Source: an uncultured Bacteroidota bacterium
GTDB lineage: Bacteria > Bacteroidota > Bacteroidia > 2-12-FULL-35-15
Direction of reading: 5' to 3'
Assembly: GCA_903926385.1 (NCBI GenBank)
Contig: CAIYIS010000014.1
Location: 1 to 64,000, forward strand
Length of the DNA stretch: 64,000 nt
The translations under genes and the position numbers were made by a program. Numbering within the stretch: position 1 is the stretch's first letter; the number at the start of each line of letters is the position of its first letter. The notes beneath the pieces were generated by a model. The model was given only the letters and a program-made list of their open reading frames with translations, was not told the DNA's origin and did not search any database. Below are positions 5,823-48,483 of the stretch, piece by piece.

Positions 5823-5917
5823 AGTTTTTTTTGTTTTTAGTTATTTATTTTAATTTAATAGTTAATAGTTTTTTATTGATAGCTAATGGTAGATAAGAAT
5901 ACATTGTTTATTCCTTC

Positions 5918-6211
5918 GAGAAATATGCCTTACATAAATATGTAAACCGGCTTTCACTCGAGAAATATGCCTTACATAAATATGTAAACCGACTTTCGAT
6001 TGAGAAATATGGCTTACATAAATTTGTAAACCGACTTTCGATTGAGAAATATGCCTTACATAAATATGTAAACCGACTTTCGATTGAGAAATATGCCTTG
6101 CATAAATATGTAAACCGACTTTCGCTCGAGAAATATGGCTTACATATTTACGTAAACCATCCTGCACGCGAGAAATATGACTTACATATTTATGTAAACC
6201 ATCCTGCACAC
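5918..6211. repeat. Tandem array, seven copies of a 42-bp unit with internal hairpin
   Basis: Copies begin at 5918, 5960, 6002, 6044, 6086, 6128 and 6170, an exact 42-bp period. Each starts GAGAAATATG and carries an inverted repeat TTACAT, loop AAAT, ATGTAA. In the first five copies an outer pair GAAA/TTTC closes a symmetric six-base internal loop. The last two copies have a different tail (ACCATCCTGCAC) and the loop reads ATTT, so the palindrome is kept. Period and unit boundaries are read directly; function is unknown. Confidence 0.95.
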
Positions 6212-12348: not shown

Positions 12349-14739
12349 TTATTTCTTCTTATTAATAATTTCGAAAACCTGAGTAATCGATTCTCCATCC
12401 TGATCTACTAAGGTAAGGGTATGCGAACCTTCATCGGGAGCGAGTTCCATTTGGTGAATATTTTGAGTGCTGCCTACATAAGTGCCATCGAGGTGCCAGA
12501 AAATAATGGTGTTTGCTTTGCGATGAGCCACCTGAAATACGGTTTTCCCCAGTTTCCCATCCAGTTCTACAGGGACATAAATTTTACTGAACTGTTTTGG
12601 ATAAATAATCTCCATAGCCGAAAGTGTAGTGGTTTCGCAGCCTGCACGCAGAGGAGGTAATTCCTGATAAGATGCATTCTTGGATTTGTAATACCATTCC
12701 ATAACGGGAGGAAGCACAAACCAACTGACATGCTTCATGGAGTTGATGTCTTCGCAATTGCTGTTTACACGGTATTTACCGCTTTGGTCAAGATGGATAA
12801 GGCGATGGTATTTGCAGGGCGGAGAATGAATTCCGGCCTTCTGCACCCATTGTGTGTCGATGGGTTCGCAAATTTCGGTAGCACGCGAGCCACTCTGATG
12901 ACAAACAGGAATTTTTTCCATTTCGTCAAAAGGCTGAGCAAACCATTTGCCGGGTTTTAGCAGACTAAAGATATCGAAAAGAACAGGCGCGGCAGTTTGA
13001 ATGCCTACCAGTCCGGGACGACCTTCGCCATCGGAATTGCCAACCCAAACACCCACCACATATTTAGGAGTAACGCCAACAGCCCATCCATCGCGATAGC
13101 CAAAACTGGTTCCCGTTTTCCAGCCCACTTTGGTGGCCGATGTGTATTGTCGCCAACCGGCATCTTCGTCCGGGCGCGACACTTCTACCATGGCTTCGAA
13201 GGTTAGAAATATGGAAGCTGCATCGAAACAAGTGGATTGAGGAAGAAGGTCGTTGTTTTGTTTTTGTTTCTCTTTATTTTTTGCAAAATAAAAAGGAGGA
13301 TGAATATCGTCCGGATTGTATTTTCCATTGTAAGTGGTATAATGATTTAAAGTACGCGCCATGCTGGCATACATTCCCGAAATATCCCACAACTTGCCCT
13401 CTGCCCCACCCAGAATGATGGAAAGGCCGTAATGTTCGGCTGAATTGTTAAGCGTGGTCATCCCTATTTTTTTGAGATTGAAATTAAATTTTTCGGTACC
13501 GAAACTTTGAAGCATACGCACAGCAGGAATATTAAGACTGCGAGCTAATGCGCGTTTGGCAGGTACTGCACCATCGTAAGTAAGGTTATAATTTTGGGGA
13601 GCGTATCCGGCAATTTGTGTTGGAATATCGGGAATAAGTGTGGTAGCAAGCAATTCGCCCGATGAAAGCATAGAAGCAAACAGAAAAGGTTTGAGAATGC
13701 TGCCGGTGCTTCGGGGAGCATTCACCACATCTACATCCGACTGATATTCGGGTTTGCCTGTGTTATCGGTATTTCCCACATAAGCCAACACATTGCCCGA
13801 ATTAACATCGAGCACTATGGCGCAAGCATTGTGAATTTGATTTGCCTTTAAAAGCTTGTGATGATTTTCGATAATTTCGTTTACTCTTTCCTGCAAATGC
13901 CCATCAATGGTGGATAATACGCGTTGCCCGCTGAAACCCTCTTTAACCGCTCGCTGAAGGAGATGAGGCGCTATCTGAGGTAATGCATAAGGTTTTCCGG
14001 GCAAGGGTTCCTGCTGACTAAGTTCGCAGGTTTCTTTGTTAATAATTTTTGCTTGCAAAAGTTGACGGAGCAATCGGTTTCGTTTGTTGCGAAGACGTTC
14101 CTGATTTTTGCCGGGATAAATTAAAGCAGGAGCATTAGGCAGAATAGCCAGAGTAGCGGCTTCGGCCCACGACATTTTCTGAGCTTCGCGTCCGAAGTAG
14201 CGCCAGGCAGCGGCATCAATGCCTACTATATTGCTCCCGAAAGGAGCATTGGATGCATACATTAAAAGTATTTCGGTTTTAGAATACTTTAGTTCGAGGC
14301 GTGTAGCCAGAATAATTTCTATTACTTTTTCAAAAAAAGTTCGGCTCTTACCTTTTCTGGACAAACGAATAACCTGCATGGATAAGGTGCTGCCTCCACT
14401 TACCACTCTCCCTGCTTTGATGTTTTGAACAATGGCACGGGCAAATGCAGCAGGATTAAACCCTCCGTGTATAAAAAAAGAACGGTCTTCGAACTGAATG
14501 ATGGAAGCAACAAACTTAGCCGGAATATGACGAGTAGCCGGAAACCGCCACTGACCATCATCGGCTATACGGGCAGCAAGCAGTTTGCCCTCTCTATCTT
14601 CGAGCACAGTGCTGGTTTGACTGGTAAATAAATGAGCAGGCAAACAGAAAACATACCAGATGAAGAGTACAAACACAAGAGAGAGTGCAATACCTCTTTT
14701 TGTCTTTACGAATTGAAAATAATTAGTAAAAGAAATCAA
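12349..14739 (-). CDS. pbpC: Penicillin-binding protein 1C (bifunctional transglycosylase/transpeptidase)
   Basis: A 796-residue class A PBP. One N-terminal membrane anchor (about 16-34) is followed by a GT51 glycosyltransferase domain with catalytic E84 in FEDRSFF and a GGSTLSMQ motif. The transpeptidase domain has STGSILKPF (SxxK), SLN and the WKTGTSFGYRD KTG box. The C-terminal region (about 700-796) matches the BiPBP_C domain found in PBP1C, with a two-cysteine linker region before it. It polymerises and cross-links peptidoglycan on the periplasmic face. It follows the alpha-2-macroglobulin gene on the same strand after 59 bases; pbpC next to that gene is a known conserved pairing. Confidence 0.95.
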   Translation of the reverse strand: MISFTNYFQFVKTKRGIALSLVFVLFIWYVFCLPAHLFTSQTSTVLEDREGKLLAARIADDGQWRFPATRHIPAKFVASIIQFEDRSFFIHGGFNPAAFARAIVQNIKAGRVVSGGSTLSMQVIRLSRKGKSRTFFEKVIEIILATRLELKYSKTEILLMYASNAPFGSNIVGIDAAAWRYFGREAQKMSWAEAATLAILPNAPALIYPGKNQERLRNKRNRLLRQLLQAKIINKETCELSQQEPLPGKPYALPQIAPHLLQRAVKEGFSGQRVLSTIDGHLQERVNEIIENHHKLLKANQIHNACAIVLDVNSGNVLAYVGNTDNTGKPEYQSDVDVVNAPRSTGSILKPFLFASMLSSGELLATTLIPDIPTQIAGYAPQNYNLTYDGAVPAKRALARSLNIPAVRMLQSFGTEKFNFNLKKIGMTTLNNSAEHYGLSIILGGAEGKLWDISGMYASMARTLNHYTTYNGKYNPDDIHPPFYFAKNKEKQKQNNDLLPQSTCFDAASIFLTFEAMVEVSRPDEDAGWRQYTSATKVGWKTGTSFGYRDGWAVGVTPKYVVGVWVGNSDGEGRPGLVGIQTAAPVLFDIFSLLKPGKWFAQPFDEMEKIPVCHQSGSRATEICEPIDTQWVQKAGIHSPPCKYHRLIHLDQSGKYRVNSNCEDINSMKHVSWFVLPPVMEWYYKSKNASYQELPPLRAGCETTTLSAMEIIYPKQFSKIYVPVELDGKLGKTVFQVAHRKANTIIFWHLDGTYVGSTQNIHQMELAPDEGSHTLTLVDQDGESITQVFEIINKKK

Positions 14740-14798: not shown

Positions 14799-17700
14799 TT
14801 ATTGTCCGGCTTTTACTACTTCCACCCATTTGCCCGGTTTACGCGAATTGATTGTGTTATCATACATGGCTTCGCAATAAATCGTTGGCAAATAATAGCG
14901 ACCTACATAGGCTGCATTCAGAACAATTCGAAACACACTGGTTTTATTTGGTGCAATATTAAAATAAGTGTAAACCCTGTCATCACGAATATCCTGATAG
15001 GTAGGATAGTCCGATTTGATAGTGCTTTCAGCATCATCCATTCGGGTATTATGAATTTCCCATCCACTCGGGAATATCTGAGTTAAGGCCATCTGCAGAT
15101 ATTCTCCACGCGTTCCCGGATTCGTAATTTTTACTTCTGCAATAAAATCAGTTCCCTGTTCCAGTTTGGTCACATCTACCGGAGCACCTTCCATAGTGGT
15201 GTAATTTATGCCAACTTTTAAATCGTTGTCCACATTAGTTTGGTCGCCTGTTTCCGGAATTCCTTCCATGATTATTCGGGCAAATAAAATCCCGCTGCCA
15301 TTGTTGGTCACACTGACATTACCAACTGATGCACCTTTTAACTGCATGTCGATTTGTTTTACCGGCAATTTTGTGTTTAAGGCAATCGGAGCATTGCTGT
15401 TTATCTTTACATTATATCTCATTTCACCGCTTGCTCCGCTTGCTCCCGCAAACTTGGATACAGCAATTAAACAGTAGGCTGTAGTCTGAGTACTCATCCA
15501 ATTGTTCGAGCTCAATGCTTTCGAAATTTGTTTAACCACAGGAGCTGCTTTTGCTTTCATATCAAGCAATGTCAATGTTTCCAGAATCATTGCTTCATCA
15601 CGGTCGTCAGAACCGTAACTCCATCCCATTTCGCAATAACGCGGAACTATGGTGGATAAATTAGCAATTAAATTTTTCGCAACTTCGAGTTGTCCCGCTT
15701 TAGCATATGCTGCTGCCAGTCTCCATTTGGCTGTTATCGACAAACGAGGGTATTCTTTCAGTCTATTCATAGCCCCGAGTTCTGGTGCTTTTGCAAGAGC
15801 CAGGGTGTACAAACGATACGCTTGCAAAAGGTCGTCATTATAATAGTAATACTTGTCGTACTTAGGAGCCCACGAATTAGCAGTATTTCGCTGATAACGC
15901 TTCCAGTTTTCAAGAATTCCTGCCGGCAATGTATATCCTTTGGCTTCGGCTTCGAGCAAAAAGTGTCCCGAATAACTGGTGCCCCAGTCATCTGCATCAT
16001 GCTGACCAGCCCAGTAACTCATGCCTCCGCTGGTGGTCTGGAATAATTTAATTCTGTCTATTCCGGCTTTTATATTCCTTGTAATGGCTACTTTAAAATC
16101 ACTATTGAGTTCCATAATATCGCTTAAATACAACTGAGGGAACACTGCAGATGTAGTTTGTTCAATACATCCGTGAGGGTAATCTATCAGATATTTCAAT
16201 CGTTCTCCCAGATTAATCGGCGGTATTGACGAAAGTTCAATAGTTCCTTTGTTGGTACCTGTAATGCCCGGAGGGGTGTAAGGTGTGTTCCATGTTTTAC
16301 CGGCTTCTACCACACTTTCCAGCACATTCACCACTTTTGGATTCGGATTGCGTACATCTATTTCAATATCGTACACCGCTTTTTCTCCACCGCTTGTTGC
16401 CACTATTTTCACCGTGCCAACTCCCAGCATAGAATTTACTTTTAGTTTAAAATTAACTACCTCATCTCCGATTTCAGCAAACGAAACCGATTTGGATGTG
16501 CCGTCTAGTGCACTGAACATGCCATTAGTTTTAATTTCAACCTTTACATTCTTTATTTGTTTTTCCATAGCAAAAACATTCACAGCCAAATCTACCGTTT
16601 CGCCTGGACCTACCACTCTGGGCAGTGTACCGAGAATCATCAATGGTTTACGAACAGGTGTTGTTTTATCAGCCGAACCGTATGCCCCGTTATGGCCTGC
16701 CACCACCATAGTTCTCACCGAACCTACATATTGAGGCATCATAAATTCATGTTTCGCAGTTTCTCCTTTTTTAAGATTAAAAGGGCCTAAGAATTTTACC
16801 ATTGGTTTAAATCGGTTGGCTTTATTTCCGGCTTTATTATTAATGTCTCCGTCACCTCCAATAGCTAATAATCGAGCTAGTTTATCTCCAAATGCCCCAA
16901 TCACAAGGTCAAACATATCCCAGGTTTTTACACCCAAAGCTTCGCGAGCATAAAATGAAGACCACGGATCAGGTGTTTTAAATCGTGTAAGGTCTAGTAA
17001 TCCTTCGTCAACTATGGCGATGGTATAGGTCATTTCTTTACCATTTTTCTCAGTTACTGTCAAACTTGATTTAGTTTCCGGACTCCATTTTTCAGGTGTG
17101 GTAATTACCGGAAACAAATGGGTGCCGGGGTCTTCCACCGAGATAGGAATAACACCATACAATCGAATTGGCAGGTCGTTTACGGTTTGAGCATGCGGCT
17201 GCACAAGGGTAACATTTACATACACATTCGGAGTCATATCGGGAGTAACCTTAAAACTATAATTGGTTTGTCCTTTTGTAGTTTCCGCCCAAAAAGATCT
17301 GATTACCTTAGAACCACTCTCTATACTTATTAATGCACGTCCTTCTGCACTCGAAGGAATGGTAAGCTTAACATCTTCGCCTACATTAAAATTTTTCTTA
17401 TCACTGGTAAATGATAATAAAGTAGCTCCTTCATTTCCTTTTGGAGATGAACCAGCCCAAGCCGGCCAGTCAATATAAACTGTTTGTCCGGTGGAGTGCC
17501 CGCTCTCAGGGTCAGTAACACGAATATAAAAACGACCCCAGTCTGGACGATTCACACGCAATATAAATTGACCTTTACCATTGGTGGTGCTGGTTTCCAT
17601 TTCCTGATAAATCTGACGAGATGTATTGCCTACATAATTGGCAAGGTCTCCATCGTAGCTATCCCACCACCAACGCCAGGATACCTTATATATCTGTACT

Positions 17701-20387
17701 TTTAAATTTTTGCGCGAAACAGGTTTGCCATCGCCATCCACCGTTGCCACTTTAACAATATGATTGGTATCCGTTACCAGCATACCCGTGAACTTGTTTC
17801 CTTCAGGGGCTTTTATACCCACATAAGAAGTGTAAGGAGAATATGGAATCGAAAACTGATCGACACTGAAAGCTCCTCCCTGTTCAAAAACTCTAACCTT
17901 GAAACTCGCACGTAACATACCCGGTGCAGCTGTTTTTACATTGATATTTGGTTTTATCATCGCTATACCTTTATCGTCTGTATTGTTATCAAAAATTGTT
18001 TGTGCATCCGAAGCATAACTGCGTGCAGGGTCATCAAAATCATACTCTTCATACTTTTTAAAGGTTGTGTTCATCTGGCTTAACGTAACTTCCACTTTTG
18101 CATTCAGATTTTTTGCTACCGCACCGGCCAGCCATTTTACTTCCAGTTTTCCGGCTACCTCTTTATTTGTAACCAATAATTTATCCGTTTTAAAATCCAG
18201 ATTTATTTTCAATCGGTTTGGCATTATAGTTTCAATCTTTATGTCTTTCGAAAACATAGCACCTCCAACTCTAACATTGGCGGTCCAATTGCCGGTAGGC
18301 GAAGTTTTATCTGTAGTAACCGGGAAAGAATAAAAACCATTCAACCCTGATGTCTTAACCATTTTTTTGTACAACTGTCCTTGCGGATTAAGCAACTCAA
18401 ATTCTACAGGATGATTTTTAGGAAGAGTGTTTAATTTATCTTCAAGAATAAATGATAAAAACAACGTATCGCCCGGACGCCATACTCCGCGCTCACCATA
18501 AATAAAGCCTTTTATGCCTTTCTGAACCTCTTCGCCCGAAACATCAAATGCACTTAACGACAAAGAAGCTCCGTCTTCAAATTTCAGATAACCTCTCTGA
18601 CTTCCGCTTTTGGCAACCATTATAAAAGGTTTCTTCTTGAAAACCATCGCACACATTCCGTCACTGTTTGTGGTCATTGTTTTTAATAATTGTAATTGGA
18701 AATCGTAGATGTCAATACTAGCGCCCGAAACAGGTTTGGTGGTAACAAGGTTGGTAATCACAAAATTCATCGAACCATCTGTTCCGCGTTTGGCGATAAG
18801 GCCTAAATCAGAAGCAAGAATATTCCTACTTACCTCCTTGCTGTGGTAGTAAGATTTTGAACAGGGGTTATCACGTTCGTTATAATTATAATCGTAATAT
18901 TGGTAATCATCGTAATAATAATCTCCATAATAATCCCAGTCTCTTTCATCATTGTCATCCACTCTGTCTGGCTGTGGCTGATATTCTTCATCGTCATTTT
19001 CAGAATCAGTTTTTGTTTCATCAGTACATTTATAAGTCGAATATTCTTTTTTGAAACTGATGATAACTTTATATATTGCCCCTGGCTCTGCCTTTATCAA
19101 CTGCGCCAAATCGAAGGAATAAGTATTCCATCTTCCTAAATCGAGAGGGCTTTTTTGTGTCAGTTGAATTGTTTTTTTCAATATCACTTTTCCTACTCTT
19201 CTCAATTCGCGGTCGCCTTCGAGGTTATTTACCTGCAAAAATTGAGGAATATTTTTTTCGTATATCTTCAATATTTTTAAATCAATCGCTTTTAAACTTA
19301 CCGCCTTGAAAGGAAAGATAAGCCCGTTGCTGTTGGGTAATATCACACCTTTACCTATCAGTTGCACTTCGGGTTTTAATTCTTCAAACATTATTTCCAT
19401 CAAATAACGTTCTTTCAATGGCATACCTAAAATATTTTTAATGCCCAATTCGGCAATAATAGTGCGGGTTCCCACCTGACGCGATTGCGGATACACACGA
19501 ATTTCATTTCCTTCGATAATATATTTTAATGCTGCTCCTCCGCTTAATGTAACTAAACCTTCCAGTGTTTGATTTTCGAGCAATGGGTCCGAAAACTGAA
19601 GCACAGCATACTGTTCCGGACTTTGAATTGTTTTTACATCTACTACTTTAAAATCGCCAAGTGCAGGAATATCTATTGTTTTATTTCCTTTCATGTCCAC
19701 GTCAATAGGTGCTCCGCTCCAGCTTACATCCACTGTTCCGGCTTTCTCAGTTCGTATTATTTCTTCCACAGTAAAATGATGAGTGGTTCTGTTAGCCTCG
19801 TGTGTCCAGCGCACAGTAAGGCTTTTGCCATTTTGCGAAGCCGTTACCATTTTTTCTATCAATGCCGAATTAGCAACATCAGCAGTAGCAAGGGTTCCGT
19901 CAAGACGTTGTGTGCGCAATGTTTTTTTATCAGTCGTGGTTATCCCGTCAATCAACACTTCGAAGCTTTGTTGCATTGTTTGAAAATCGAATTCAAATGT
20001 TTTAAATTCGTTCGAAACACTTAAAATTTCGGACAAATAAAATTCAGCTTTGTATTGCGTATTGGGTGGCAATGGTTTTTCTGGACGGAACTCAATCGTG
20101 CGTGTATCCAGCCATACAGCGGTTCCTTTTATGGAAGGAGAAAAATCGAAAAGGGTTTTCGAAATTGGTTTTCCTACTTCAATGGGTGTTTCCATTTCGT
20201 TCGTTAACAAAATCCGAATCGTTGATTCGGTAGAAATAACTCCCGATGTGTAAGCCCCTATGAAGGCCGTAAACGCTGGGTTTTCTTTAATTTCAGAATT
20301 GTGATTTTGTGTTTTAAAAAACACAGTGAGTCCTAACATGGCGAAAACAACGGTTCCCGCGATGAACAATAAAAGTCTTTTTGACAT
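14799..20387 (-). CDS. Bacterial alpha-2-macroglobulin with intact thioester
   Basis: A 1862-residue bacterial alpha-2-macroglobulin (YfhM-like). An N-terminal membrane segment (about 5-25) has no lipobox Cys, so it is probably anchored in the inner membrane facing the periplasm. Successive MG beta-sandwich domains include the MG2-like GFIYGERGVWRPGDTLFLSF. The thioester domain carries PHGCIEQTTS with C1407 and the conserved EQ, so the covalent trap should form. Such proteins are thought to capture invading proteases when the envelope is breached, with PBP1C repairing the wall; the downstream pbpC fits. Odd feature: an acidic Asp/Tyr-rich low-complexity stretch at about 460-510 (multiple YYDD and DYN runs) inserted near MG domains. 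A minus-7-like TACATTTG lies upstream at 20442-20449 (-). Confidence 0.95.
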   Translation of the reverse strand: MSKRLLLFIAGTVVFAMLGLTVFFKTQNHNSEIKENPAFTAFIGAYTSGVISTESTIRILLTNEMETPIEVGKPISKTLFDFSPSIKGTAVWLDTRTIEFRPEKPLPPNTQYKAEFYLSEILSVSNEFKTFEFDFQTMQQSFEVLIDGITTTDKKTLRTQRLDGTLATADVANSALIEKMVTASQNGKSLTVRWTHEANRTTHHFTVEEIIRTEKAGTVDVSWSGAPIDVDMKGNKTIDIPALGDFKVVDVKTIQSPEQYAVLQFSDPLLENQTLEGLVTLSGGAALKYIIEGNEIRVYPQSRQVGTRTIIAELGIKNILGMPLKERYLMEIMFEELKPEVQLIGKGVILPNSNGLIFPFKAVSLKAIDLKILKIYEKNIPQFLQVNNLEGDRELRRVGKVILKKTIQLTQKSPLDLGRWNTYSFDLAQLIKAEPGAIYKVIISFKKEYSTYKCTDETKTDSENDDEEYQPQPDRVDDNDERDWDYYGDYYYDDYQYYDYNYNERDNPCSKSYYHSKEVSRNILASDLGLIAKRGTDGSMNFVITNLVTTKPVSGASIDIYDFQLQLLKTMTTNSDGMCAMVFKKKPFIMVAKSGSQRGYLKFEDGASLSLSAFDVSGEEVQKGIKGFIYGERGVWRPGDTLFLSFILEDKLNTLPKNHPVEFELLNPQGQLYKKMVKTSGLNGFYSFPVTTDKTSPTGNWTANVRVGGAMFSKDIKIETIMPNRLKINLDFKTDKLLVTNKEVAGKLEVKWLAGAVAKNLNAKVEVTLSQMNTTFKKYEEYDFDDPARSYASDAQTIFDNNTDDKGIAMIKPNINVKTAAPGMLRASFKVRVFEQGGAFSVDQFSIPYSPYTSYVGIKAPEGNKFTGMLVTDTNHIVKVATVDGDGKPVSRKNLKVQIYKVSWRWWWDSYDGDLANYVGNTSRQIYQEMETSTTNGKGQFILRVNRPDWGRFYIRVTDPESGHSTGQTVYIDWPAWAGSSPKGNEGATLLSFTSDKKNFNVGEDVKLTIPSSAEGRALISIESGSKVIRSFWAETTKGQTNYSFKVTPDMTPNVYVNVTLVQPHAQTVNDLPIRLYGVIPISVEDPGTHLFPVITTPEKWSPETKSSLTVTEKNGKEMTYTIAIVDEGLLDLTRFKTPDPWSSFYAREALGVKTWDMFDLVIGAFGDKLARLLAIGGDGDINNKAGNKANRFKPMVKFLGPFNLKKGETAKHEFMMPQYVGSVRTMVVAGHNGAYGSADKTTPVRKPLMILGTLPRVVGPGETVDLAVNVFAMEKQIKNVKVEIKTNGMFSALDGTSKSVSFAEIGDEVVNFKLKVNSMLGVGTVKIVATSGGEKAVYDIEIDVRNPNPKVVNVLESVVEAGKTWNTPYTPPGITGTNKGTIELSSIPPINLGERLKYLIDYPHGCIEQTTSAVFPQLYLSDIMELNSDFKVAITRNIKAGIDRIKLFQTTSGGMSYWAGQHDADDWGTSYSGHFLLEAEAKGYTLPAGILENWKRYQRNTANSWAPKYDKYYYYNDDLLQAYRLYTLALAKAPELGAMNRLKEYPRLSITAKWRLAAAYAKAGQLEVAKNLIANLSTIVPRYCEMGWSYGSDDRDEAMILETLTLLDMKAKAAPVVKQISKALSSNNWMSTQTTAYCLIAVSKFAGASGASGEMRYNVKINSNAPIALNTKLPVKQIDMQLKGASVGNVSVTNNGSGILFARIIMEGIPETGDQTNVDNDLKVGINYTTMEGAPVDVTKLEQGTDFIAEVKITNPGTRGEYLQMALTQIFPSGWEIHNTRMDDAESTIKSDYPTYQDIRDDRVYTYFNIAPNKTSVFRIVLNAAYVGRYYLPTIYCEAMYDNTINSRKPGKWVEVVKAGQ

Positions 20388-22338: not shown

Positions 22339-22496
22339 AACTAACCCTGATTTTTGGGGCATTAACCTTCGTCATCGCTATATTACCTTTCGGTTTACGC
22401 TCCGAACTCGCTTTTTGGCTAGTAAGGGGGGGGTTTTCTTACTTATTTTTTAAGTAAGTGGTGTGGTGGCAGGATGCTAAATAATAGTTGCTAGAA

Positions 22497-22690
22497 GGAA
22501 AATAGCAAATATTGGAAAGGAAATAGCAAATGTTGAAAAGGAAATAGCAAATATTGAAAAGGAAATAGCAAATATTGAAAAGGAAATAGCAAATATTGGA
22601 AAGGAAACAGCAAATGTTTGAAAGGAAATAGCAAATATTGGAAAGGAAACAGCAAATGTTGGAAAGGAAATAGAAGAAATTGAAAAGGAA
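22497..22690. repeat. Tandem array, about nine copies of a 21-bp purine-rich unit
   Basis: Units start at 22497 (one base longer), 22519, 22540, 22561, 22582, 22603, 22624, 22645 and 22666, with a decayed copy from 22687. The consensus begins GGAAATAGCAAAT and ends TTGAAAA. Alternating variants (AAACAGCAAATGTT, AAATAGCAAATATT) from 22603 to 22665 give a 42-bp higher-order period. Confidence 0.95.
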
Positions 22691-38358: not shown

Positions 38359-38652
38359 TTCAATCAAGAACTTGAATTGTTCAATCAAAATCCTGAGTTG
38401 TTCAATCAAACTGCTGAATTGTTCAATCAAAATCTTGGGTGGTTCAATCAAATTCCTGAGTGGTTCAATCAAACAACTGAGTTCTTCAATCAAAATCTTG
38501 GGTGGTTCAATCAAATTCCTGAGTGGTTCAATCAAACAACTGAGTTGTTCAATCAAAATGCAGAGTTGTTCAATCAAAAACGTGAGTTATTCAATTAAAA
38601 ATGTGAGTTATTCAATCAAAATCTTGAGTTGTTGTATCAATCGGCCCAATTA
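38359..38652. repeat. Tandem array, 14 copies of a 21-bp unit with conserved and variable parts
   Basis: Copies start every 21 bases from 38359 to 38632 without exception. Each opens with the near-invariant TTCAATCAAA and closes with GAGTTG-like sequence around a variable middle of four to six bases. Copies 4-6 (38422-38484) are repeated almost exactly as copies 7-9 (38485-38547), a 63-bp segmental duplication. The last copy is decayed. Confidence 0.97.
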
Positions 38653-45682: not shown

Positions 45683-47164
45683 ATGGCTTTAGATACAAAA
45701 GATGTTTTAAAAGGAGGTACCAGAGGTTCGTACGAAGACGAATTAAACGATTGGATTAAGCAAGAAAAAGCGGCAATTGCCATGATTGGTGTTATTGGAA
45801 CGCTTTGGTTCGAGAAATCTATCGAACTTATTATTTTCCGCAACCAGTTAGTTGACCGCAGTGCAAGTGAGATTATGAAACTGCATCAATATGCAAAAGA
45901 CATTGTGAAAGAACCAATAAATGTAACCGACAGCCTTATGTTGGCTCAGGAAATATTAAAAATGGAAGTAGTTCCTTCTCGTATTGATATTGGACGTTTA
46001 GCATCAGAATGGATTCAGGAGCATGATAAATATAAATCGGCAAGCGCATTTATGGCTGATAAATTACATGATTTTATCGGTATGGATAAACACACCATTG
46101 TTCCGAAAGATGTTATTCTATATGGTTTTGGTCGTATTGGTCGTCTTGCCGCCCGTGAGTTAATAGGACAAGCAGGAAAAGGTGAGCAATTGCGTTTGAG
46201 AGCAATTGTTACCAGAAGTAATTCTGATGAGGATATTCAAAAACGTGCTGATTTATTGCGTACAGATTCTGTACATGGCCCTTTCCCCGGAACTATTATC
46301 GAAGATTTTAAAAACAAGGCATTGATTGTAAATGGACACACCATTATGATGATTGCCACCAACAAACCGGAAGATGTTGATTACACTGCATTCGGAATTA
46401 ATGATGCATTACTAATTGACAATACAGGTATAGCTCGCGACAGAGCAGGATTGAGCAAACACCTCTTATCAAAAGGGGTTGCAAAAGTTCTCTTAACAGC
46501 ACCCGGAAAGGGCGATATCCCAAATATTGTTCACGGAATTAATCACCGCGAATACGATAAAGACGAAACTATTTTCTCAGCAGCTTCTTGTACAACTAAT
46601 GCTATTGTACCTGTGCTTGCTGTAATCGACAGAACACTGGGTATTACCAGAGGACATTTGGAAACCATTCACTCATACACTAACGACCAGAATTTATTGG
46701 ATAACTATCATCCGAAATACCGCAGAGGTCGTTCGGCTGCATTAAACATGGTGATTACTGAAACAGGTGCCGACAAAGCTGTTTCCAAAGTATTACCTCA
46801 GCTAACTGGTAAAATAAGCGGTAACTCAGTACGTGTGCCAACACCTGATGTATCGTTGGCTATTCTTAATCTTACGCTAACTAATCCAACTACCAAAGAT
46901 GGAGTAAATGAAATAATGAAAGAAGCTGCACTAAAAGGAAATTTGGTGGAGCAGATTCAATATTCTTTTTCAAATGAATTGGTTTCGACCGATTGTATTG
47001 GCAATCCTTGTGCATGTATTTTCGACAGTCCGGCAACTATTGTGGCTAAAGATGGAAGCAGTTGTGTTCTGTATGTTTGGTATGATAATGAATACGGTTA
47101 CACTCGTCAGGTTATTCGTTTGGCCAAGAAGATTTCTGATGTAAATCGTTTGAGATACTACTAG
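45683..47164 (+). CDS. gap: Glyceraldehyde-3-phosphate dehydrogenase, long form
   Basis: A 493-residue GAPDH, about 150 residues longer than the classical enzyme. An extra N-terminal region (about 1-135; LNDWIKQEKAAIAMIGVIG) precedes the Rossmann NAD-binding motif YGFGRIGRLAARE. The catalytic Cys is C303 in ASCTTNAIVPVL, with the HSYTNDQNLLD segment and C-terminal WYDNEYGY. It oxidises G3P to 1,3-bisphosphoglycerate in glycolysis or the reverse in gluconeogenesis. Long GAPDH forms like this occur in Bacteroidota and some Gammaproteobacteria; the role of the extension is unknown. A terminator follows. Confidence 0.96.
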   Translation: MALDTKDVLKGGTRGSYEDELNDWIKQEKAAIAMIGVIGTLWFEKSIELIIFRNQLVDRSASEIMKLHQYAKDIVKEPINVTDSLMLAQEILKMEVVPSRIDIGRLASEWIQEHDKYKSASAFMADKLHDFIGMDKHTIVPKDVILYGFGRIGRLAARELIGQAGKGEQLRLRAIVTRSNSDEDIQKRADLLRTDSVHGPFPGTIIEDFKNKALIVNGHTIMMIATNKPEDVDYTAFGINDALLIDNTGIARDRAGLSKHLLSKGVAKVLLTAPGKGDIPNIVHGINHREYDKDETIFSAASCTTNAIVPVLAVIDRTLGITRGHLETIHSYTNDQNLLDNYHPKYRRGRSAALNMVITETGADKAVSKVLPQLTGKISGNSVRVPTPDVSLAILNLTLTNPTTKDGVNEIMKEAALKGNLVEQIQYSFSNELVSTDCIGNPCACIFDSPATIVAKDGSSCVLYVWYDNEYGYTRQVIRLAKKISDVNRLRYY

Positions 47165-47186: not shown

Positions 47187-47223
47187 AAAAGTCCTGTTTC
47201 ATAGTACAAAACAGGACTTTTTT
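47187..47223 (+). terminator. Terminator of the GAPDH gene
   Basis: AAAAGTCCTGTTT (47187-47199) pairs with AAACAGGACTTTT across a short loop, ending in a T-run at 47223. Confidence 0.88.
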
Positions 47224-48000
47224 ATTATTTATATTTCCTTACAAATTACACTCACTATTAAAACTATTTTCTCAATAAATATAAAGACCGAATTTTCTTC
47301 TGATTTGCAAAAAAGCAATAAAAGACGATTTGCTTACATTCCTAAAAAAGGAAAGCACCCGAATTGGGTTTCGGGTGCATTCCATAAAAACAGAATGCTT
47401 CTGAAATGTATTTCCGATACATTCTAGAAAAATGGAATACTCCTGAAACGTATTTCGGATATATTCGATAGATATGGAATGCCTCAGAGATTTGTTTTGG
47501 ATATGTTTCCGAAAAAGGAAATGCTCCCGAAATGTGTTTCGGAAATGTTTCAGAGAAAGGAAATGCCTCCCAAATGTGTTTCGGACATGTTTCCAAAAAA
47601 GGAAATGCTCCCGAAATGTGTTTCGGACATATTTCCGAAAAAGGAAATGCTTCCCAAATGTATTTCGGACATGTTTCCGAAAAAGGAAAACCACTCTAAC
47701 AGAGTTTTAAATTTTTTTTTTGGAATATATAATAGTTTTAAAACACTTCTCCAAGACACAGACAAGTCGAAGATGTAAAAAGCTACTAACGGTATAAAGC
47801 AGAAATTGAATACAAAATTCAGAACACTTAATTAATATAGACTTTTTGCTTGATGAATTGTAGTGCAAACTAAATTTTTTAATACGAATTTGCCATATTC
47901 CAAACAATACAATTTCAAGCTACATCAAACTTATTTTTGTGAAAACATCGAATAACGGAATACTATTTGCAGTATAAACATAAATCAAACGATTCAAATT
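47224..48000. other. Long intergenic region with a 42-bp hairpin array
   Basis: 777 bases between the GAPDH terminator and the diheme lipoprotein gene. Most of it is the array at 47350-47684. The remainder (47685-48000) is A/T-rich with a minus-7-like TATTTTTG at 47932-47939 (+), 61 bases before the next start. Overlapping ORFs of 60-140 codons on both strands come from the stop-free unit. Confidence 0.7.
47350..47684. repeat. Tandem array, eight copies of a 42-bp unit, each an imperfect hairpin
   Basis: Copies start at 47350, 47392, 47434, 47476 (41 bases), 47517, 47559, 47601 and 47643. In the consensus, GGAAA pairs with TTTCC (outer stem), a five-base internal loop follows, and CCGAAA pairs with TTTCGG across TGTG (inner stem), then GAAAAA as spacer. 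Copy 1 has arms GCACCCGAA/TTCGGGTGC and copy 2 has outer arms AGAATG/CATTCT, so both sides changed together. The 5' copies are most diverged. Confidence 0.95.
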
Positions 48001-48483
48001 ATGCAACAATCCAAAATATTTAGTTCATTAATGGTTATTATTATAGTTGCTGGAATCCTGCAATCCTGCAAAAAAACGAATACCACTCAAAGCGAAAATC
48101 AAAACGAAACTAAAATTTCAACTCATGGAAGTACTCAAAGTCACAATTCCGGACAAAATTGCATGACCTGTCATAAACCCGGTGGCTCGGGAGAGGGTTG
48201 GTTTGCTATTGGAGGATCTGTATATGACACTATGCTTACTTCAGTTTATCCCAATGCAACGGTTAAGTTGTTTACAGGCGCCAATGGATCGGGCACTTTA
48301 AAATATACTTTTCAAGTGGATGCGTTGGGTAATTTTTATACTACCGAAAGCATAGATTTTGGTTCCGGGCTTTTTCCTGCGGTACAAGGAAATACATCCA
48401 CACGTTTTATGTCCACTTCAATCACTACAGGACAATGTAATAGTTGCCATGGAGTGTCAACAAACAGGCTGTGGACACGATGA
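48001..48483 (+). CDS. Lipoprotein with two c-type heme motifs
   Basis: A 160-residue predicted lipoprotein. Hydrophobic signal with lipobox GILQSC, acylated Cys C23. Two CxxCH heme-attachment motifs: CMTCH at 54-58 and CNSCH at 146-150, so two covalent c hemes are possible, separated by an Ig-like beta region (about 68-130: GGSVYDTMLTSVYPNATVKL). It is probably an electron carrier or sensor on the outer face of a membrane. No cytochrome maturation or respiratory genes are nearby; the next gene is convergent, 41 bases away. I do not recognise a named family. Confidence 0.82.
   Translation: MQQSKIFSSLMVIIIVAGILQSCKKTNTTQSENQNETKISTHGSTQSHNSGQNCMTCHKPGGSGEGWFAIGGSVYDTMLTSVYPNATVKLFTGANGSGTLKYTFQVDALGNFYTTESIDFGSGLFPAVQGNTSTRFMSTSITTGQCNSCHGVSTNRLWTR

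Follow-up and report, generated by a model that had tools for sequence, protein, structure and literature searches.

A family of intergenic 42-bp hairpin arrays in Bacteroidia in which base-pairing, not sequence, is kept by selection

Results

The window, that is, the whole 64,000-nt stretch of DNA analyzed here, belongs to contig C14 in a draft Bacteroidia genome of 4.27 Mb (G000). A glyceraldehyde-3-phosphate dehydrogenase gene (gap; PF00044, PF02800) occupies positions 45683–47164 of the + strand and is followed on the same strand by a terminator-shaped hairpin (47188–47220), AAAGTCCTGTTT ... AAACAGGACTTT and then a T run, which was identified by sequence inspection; its 9-nt loop is beyond the limits of the terminator scan. 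Further downstream, the + strand ORF at 48001–48483 encodes a lipoprotein with two CxxCH haem-binding motifs in its sequence, for which the Pfam cytochrome matches were below curated cut-offs. The intergenic region between these two genes contains a hairpin array of eight 42-bp two-part units with a terminal GGAAA arm (47350–47689, + strand). A first-pass annotation of this DNA had placed the array after the gap terminator and before a heme lipoprotein gene, and both neighbors are directly visible in the sequence.

The eight units are in register and span 47350–47685, with the terminal GGAAA at 47685–47689. RNAalifold analysis of the units gave the same two-part stem that the first-pass annotation had drawn. 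The array stretch folded better than its shuffles on both strands (z of -6.95 on + and -6.04 on -), as is expected of a palindromic element. All features of the array are given on the + strand. Unit 1 (47350–47391) is diverged and carries a perfect 9-bp inner stem, GCACCCGAA/TTCGGGTGC, in agreement with the gain of pairs reported for its inner arms; it is terminator-like when read on the minus strand. The diverged unit 2 (47392–47433) has the outer arms AGAATG/CATTCT, changed on both sides as described earlier, and units 3 and 4 (47434–47517) are diverged copies as well. The remaining four units (47517–47684: 47517–47558, 47559–47600, 47601–47642, and 47643–47684) are well preserved, stand in the register of the family, and match its covariance model with E values of 1e-5 to 8.5e-9. 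The single mismatch previously noted in copies 6 and 8 is a C-C mismatch in both. The junction palindrome TTTCC-GAAAAA-GGAAA was matched exactly at 47506–47521, 47632–47647, and 47674–47689. With four diverged units, the window array may no longer work.

The paired changes of the first two copies had been taken as a sign of selection for structure. These changes are present and exceed chance, but only moderately, and amount to about three events. Double-sided changes occurred in 4/15 pairs of window units versus a shuffled mean of 1.5 (6/500 shuffles), double-sided cells numbered 6 versus 2.1 (2/500), and the covariation score was 0.240 versus 0.182 (2/500), with lower values in slid controls. 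On the 3' side of unit 1, a contiguous block reads GTGCA, exactly complementary to TGCAC in the opposite arm. Multi-base compensatory changes are known to arise by template switching (PMC8794818), and a single template switch could have made this block. The paired changes of the window array are therefore partly explicable by template switching, and those of copies 1 and 2 alone are weak evidence for selection.

The earlier inference of selection for structure and not for protein is supported mostly by related arrays, which lie beyond the sequence that it was drawn from. A BLAST search with the window array identified arrays in three congeneric species and in one other family. Within the genus, the arrays found in this way have the junction palindrome in common, and the exact junction 16-mer was clustered at 42-bp spacing in four close relatives (G000 included), while the reversed junction pattern, serving as a control, had no occurrence in 36 congeneric genomes. 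Each 42-bp unit nests an inner hairpin (two arms of 7 around 2 apical positions) between two internal loops of 5 and two outer arms of 5, and ends with the linker [GT]AAAAA. The first eight arrays were found by BLAST and the junction motif and were not selected on the inner stem, the palindromic sequence of which varies from array to array. When one unit was taken from each of the eight, double-sided changes were observed in 7/7 inner pairs, with 17 double-sided cells versus 5.6 and a score of 0.488 versus 0.180 (0/500). The center of the inner palindrome, located without the outer arms, was position 18.5 in 8/8 arrays, which is 21.0 bp, or two helical turns, from the junction palindrome; the spacing is exactly 21 bp in most members.

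A covariance model of the first eight arrays found additional ones in G014 (C10, C14, and C18), G026 (C7:44k), and G038 (C12 and C64), and then in G120 and G152. Their outer stems include GGAAA/TTTCC, GACAA/TTGTC, TGAA/TTCA, and ATAA/TTAT. Double-sided cells numbered 38 versus 11.4 in shuffles for 14 arrays and 49 versus 13.7 for 18 arrays, the latter with a score of 0.613 versus 0.197 (0/500) and slid controls of at most 0.19. Rows added by the covariance model were partly selected for pairing. The family consists of at least 18 arrays of common architecture in two Bacteroidia genera, and among 395 Bacteroidia genomes drawn evenly, it was present only in genera g1 and g4 (2/196 genera). Between arrays, the stems stay paired while their letters change. 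The loops and the apex are free to vary, the unit has a constant length, and the A5 linker is preserved together with most of the AATGC motif.

No shared leader or tail was found around the window array. Dispersed arrays of the family share an orthologous site in G026 and G034, between dfr and a DUF5074 lipoprotein gene, on opposite strands. The G034:C151 array (L220, about 17220–18020) is an isolated case with 242-bp flanking copies on both sides that are 94% identical; these flanks are rich in other hairpins, e.g., AATCCTGAAAGGATT and GCCCCCAATGAAATTGGGGG, and part of them also occurs near the L219 array. A composite array in G026:C7:83k (L217 3018–3560) has eight or nine units fused in register to four of another type. 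At G026:C12 (L218 12953–17482), a two-junction hairpin copy is located at 14204–14269 between dinB-like and dnaE-like genes, and a LexA-like gene adjoins it.

Changes within arrays were counted in 15 arrays (84 units) with the structure fixed beforehand from the first eight units. Stem sites showed 0.014 changes per site versus 0.070 for unpaired sites, a five-fold difference that was reached in 0/5000 column permutations. Among the unpaired positions, the rate was 0.09 in the internal loops, 0.107 at the apical positions, and 0.022 in the A-rich linker. When each column was counted only once, 22/360 stem columns and 57/180 loop columns were variable (P about 2e-14). Stems were less variable than loops in 14/15 arrays, and arrays that had not been used to define the structure behaved alike (G120_C2, G152_C135, and G026_C7b83). 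In these genomes, the stem-sparing tendency was also seen in most of the remaining 42-bp arrays with dyad symmetry. Outside the window array, copies of one array showed hardly any paired changes relative to each other, and none of the 84 units in these 15 arrays differed from another copy of its array by a double-sided change. The first-pass annotation had held that homologous arrays with changes unrelated to pairing would refute a structural role; the arrays checked for this show paired stem changes from one array to another and, within an array, changes that avoid stems and fall in loops. The view that pairing in this repeat family is under selection is well supported.

A gene that encodes a protein of about 320 aa follows directly downstream of an array, on the same strand, in G026, G014 (two copies), G034, G120, G152, and G084. 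The genes downstream of arrays include those at L327 363–1331, L331 910–1866, L333 2032–2988, L219 12307–13266, and L104 10941–11900. An array was present at 7/9 homologues with at least 49% identity. The other two are G038, which probably also has such a home locus, as array and gene apparently lie on two contig ends, and G182, where the homologue is present and no array was detected. The array-bearing genera g1 and g4 are the two with close homologues of the 320-aa protein. G000 possesses two arrays and only remote homologues (28% identity or less); the window array is thus considered a dispersed copy. It should be noted that the co-occurrence of array and gene concerns two clades only, with G000 and G182 as exceptions.

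The 320-aa family shows about 50% identity across two Bacteroidia families, with more distant paralogues in G120, G392, and others. Searches of Pfam, NCBIfam, and PDB sequences found nothing that matched the protein, and PHROGs and PADLOC gave only weak, chance-level matches. No viral, phage, or plasmid homologues were found, and carriage of the gene by any of these was rejected for lack of a match. The AlphaFold model is poor (pLDDT 55), with a helical N-terminal two thirds and a small beta C-terminus. Upstream of the home array, a small regulator has a LytTR domain in G120 (just below the cut-off in G152), and a LuxR-type regulator domain is found in G034 (divergent) and, weakly, in G026. 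That the arrays serve at their home loci to control the 320-aa gene is an inference, and no transcript or binding data are available.

The hairpin arrays occur among many others with 21-bp steps. In 414 kb sampled from G000, 25/39 arrays with a period of at least 10 were multiples of 21 (21, 42, 63, 84, and 126), which corresponds to about 60 per Mb. Such 21n arrays reached 31–50 per Mb in G014, G026, G034, G004, and the more distant congener G027, and 12 per Mb in G015; none was present in about 1 Mb from fifteen other congeners, and 80 loci mostly from other Bacteroidota (1.46 Mb) gave 4 per Mb. These densities rest on 20–414 kb per genome, with some stretches chosen around known arrays, and a GAPDH tree was built alongside the comparison. 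Nearly all 21n arrays are intergenic. No palindromes are seen in arrays whose direct period is 21 bp. As a rule, 42-bp arrays that lack direct identity at 21 bp are palindromic and have another dyad at a distance of 21 bp from the first (P about 5e-6).

Several explanations of these arrays were rejected: A-tract phasing at 10.5 bp gave no curvature signal, a 7-bp substructure that would indicate a heptamer origin of the 21-mers is absent, and neither Y1 transposase nor reverse transcriptase, as array maker, was associated with array-rich genomes. A terminator or promoter role was rejected on orientation, as co-directional, divergent, and convergent gaps were occupied roughly in proportion to gap length.

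Other arrays of the window were also inspected. At 5916–6200, divergent genes flank an array of 42-bp units that contain two palindromes each (inner stem TTACATAAATATGTAA and outer stem GAAA/TTTC), and its unpaired columns are more variable than the paired ones. The intergenic 21-bp and 21/63-bp arrays at 22495–22690 and 38359–38640 have no palindromes and belong to the genome-wide 21-bp-step class. On contig C39 of G000, two 21-bp arrays (L075 457–675 and L079 9904–10068) have the core GTTTCGGAAATGGAT with different 6-bp remainders; a 50-bp flank common to both suggests dispersal of the array together with its flank.

Discussion

Intergenic tandem repeats of bacteria are usually regarded as neutral. 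The repeat family reported here has not been described previously, and its base-pairing is kept by selection while its sequence is not. No description of these arrays was found in the open-access literature searched, which did not cover subscription literature.

The window array is best explained as a member of a conserved family that acts as a DNA hairpin or cruciform with two-turn spacing in the control region of the 320-aa protein gene. The function is inferred, and our confidence in this explanation falls slightly short of even. The selected property would be the formation of hairpins or cruciforms in DNA at two-turn spacing, for which there are no cruciform data; an architectural or structure-specific protein may recognize the hairpin shape, although no protein-binding data exist. 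Action is presumed to take place in front of the 320-aa protein gene, the site of the best-conserved arrays, and the window array would be a dispersed copy that is either maintained or decaying, its genome having no close homologue of that gene.

A role in DNA is favored over one in RNA on three grounds. The 18 changed stem cells comprised 4 G.T, 5 A.C, and 9 others, and 15 array consensi had 2 G.T in 180 pairs, so that wobble is not enriched on either strand; unit, loop, and linker lengths are constant among aligned units; and arrays of the wider class stand in mixed orientation to genes (20 co-directional, 14 divergent, and 8 convergent). Dispersed arrays of the family likewise occur in either orientation to their neighbors, and no Rfam family matched above its gathering score. 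Nevertheless, the numbers are small, the wobble argument having only 18 changed cells, and transcript data are lacking. An RNA leader is not excluded: all home arrays are in sense orientation, at a distance of about 70 to 390 bp upstream of the start codon, a two-part hairpin with an unpaired A-rich linker resembles RNA beads, and covariation among arrays is also expected of such beads. It therefore remains possible, if unlikely, that the arrays form a 5' leader or non-coding RNA that binds a protein or controls downstream translation or decay.

The family also resembles REP/BIME palindromes. REPs are linked to RAYT (TnpA-REP) transposases (e.g., PMC2817692, PMC3733652), and REP/BIME systems share with the present arrays short intergenic palindromes in tandem clusters whose structure is kept though the sequence varies (PMC2817692, PMC3733652), as well as one set of copies adjacent to a candidate partner gene. 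A selfish or domesticated element of the REP kind, with the 320-aa protein as the possible partner that spreads it, would account for an array at the partner gene together with other, dispersed arrays of that genome (G014, G026, G034, G120, and probably G038), for the fusion of two array types at one site, and for the multicopy, foldable, intergenic palindrome itself. However, the window family has a strict 42-bp tandem unit with an A5 linker and only few loci per genome. The 320-aa protein is not a Y1 transposase and has no transposase or nuclease domain match. The GTAG tag is absent from all 18 array consensi, and CGTC appears only in the internal loops of G026_C12 and G034_C151, never at a stem foot. 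Y1_Tnp is found in array-rich and array-free congeners alike. The family thus behaves like REP/BIME palindromes but fails the defining tests of tag and RAYT linkage, for which reason it is not classed as REP/BIME; an origin of this general kind is improbable. A broader proposal is that an undescribed DNA-array system is at work in part of Bacteroidia. Its machinery would build intergenic arrays on a 21-bp ruler, with direct 21-mers or alternating palindromes placed exactly two helical turns apart, and its hairpin branch would have the 320-aa protein, of unknown fold, as a partner that binds or spreads the arrays. This proposal is doubtful as well, and both the function and the builder of the arrays are unproven.

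Neutral growth by slippage, with stems made or repaired by template switching and no selection, is considerably less plausible. The complementary block in unit 1, the known capacity of template switching for compensatory changes, and the unrelated 21n arrays everywhere in these genomes are consistent with it. Repair by template switching should, however, yield double changes, and none was seen in the 84 units although loops varied freely; purifying selection on pairing is hence inferred to be the better reading. The A5 linker and AATGC, moreover, are kept without being paired. A coding role, with repeat peptides made from the 140-aa ORF of the minus strand or from ORFs like it, can practically be discounted. 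In its favor, the 42-bp period is divisible by 3, and frames in wider arrays are open slightly more often than expected. Against it, a related array (G026:C7:83k, L217 3209) has no open frame, codon-position bias is absent over the arrays, and no Pfam match exists; for the window array by itself, the codon-position test gave p = 0.044, with two variable positions in three, unlike coding sequence.

Other repeat systems share single features with the arrays. The BrickBuilt MITE of Porphyromonas gingivalis is also an intergenic tandem minisatellite in Bacteroidota, but its units are 23-nt, of one sequence, with a conserved leader and tail (PMC4596501), whereas the window family is 42-bp, palindromic, and of many sequences; a leader and tail of the BrickBuilt type with terminal inverted repeats was not found around the window array, the G034:C151 flanks being isolated. 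The satellites of Subirana and Messeguer (2019) are likewise tandem repeats (10–200 nt), partly intergenic and mutually unrelated, with at most 23 per Mb in bacteria in their Table 1 (PMC6749651), compared with 30–60 here under different criteria; the present arrays differ in that nearly all are 21n and many units are palindromic. The TAACTGA arrays of Beggiatoaceae, Cyanobacteria, and some Bacteroidetes are similarly abundant intergenic direct repeats of fixed short period, but consist of a single heptamer without a palindrome (PMC4679880), whereas the 21-bp units lack a 7-bp substructure. The arrays do not fit a CRISPR, which has identical repeats with different spacers and cas genes: the 26 bp between repeats are near-identical within an array, and no cas-like genes were noted among the neighboring ORFs inspected.

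Across two bacterial families, the repeats keep their pairing and not their letters, purifying selection can be seen within each array, and the copies that are best conserved precede a gene of unknown function. The family provides a concrete test case for whether hairpins in chromosomal DNA are functional. It also exposes a wider regularity, probably hundreds of arrays per genome in exact 21-bp steps, that is so far unexplained.
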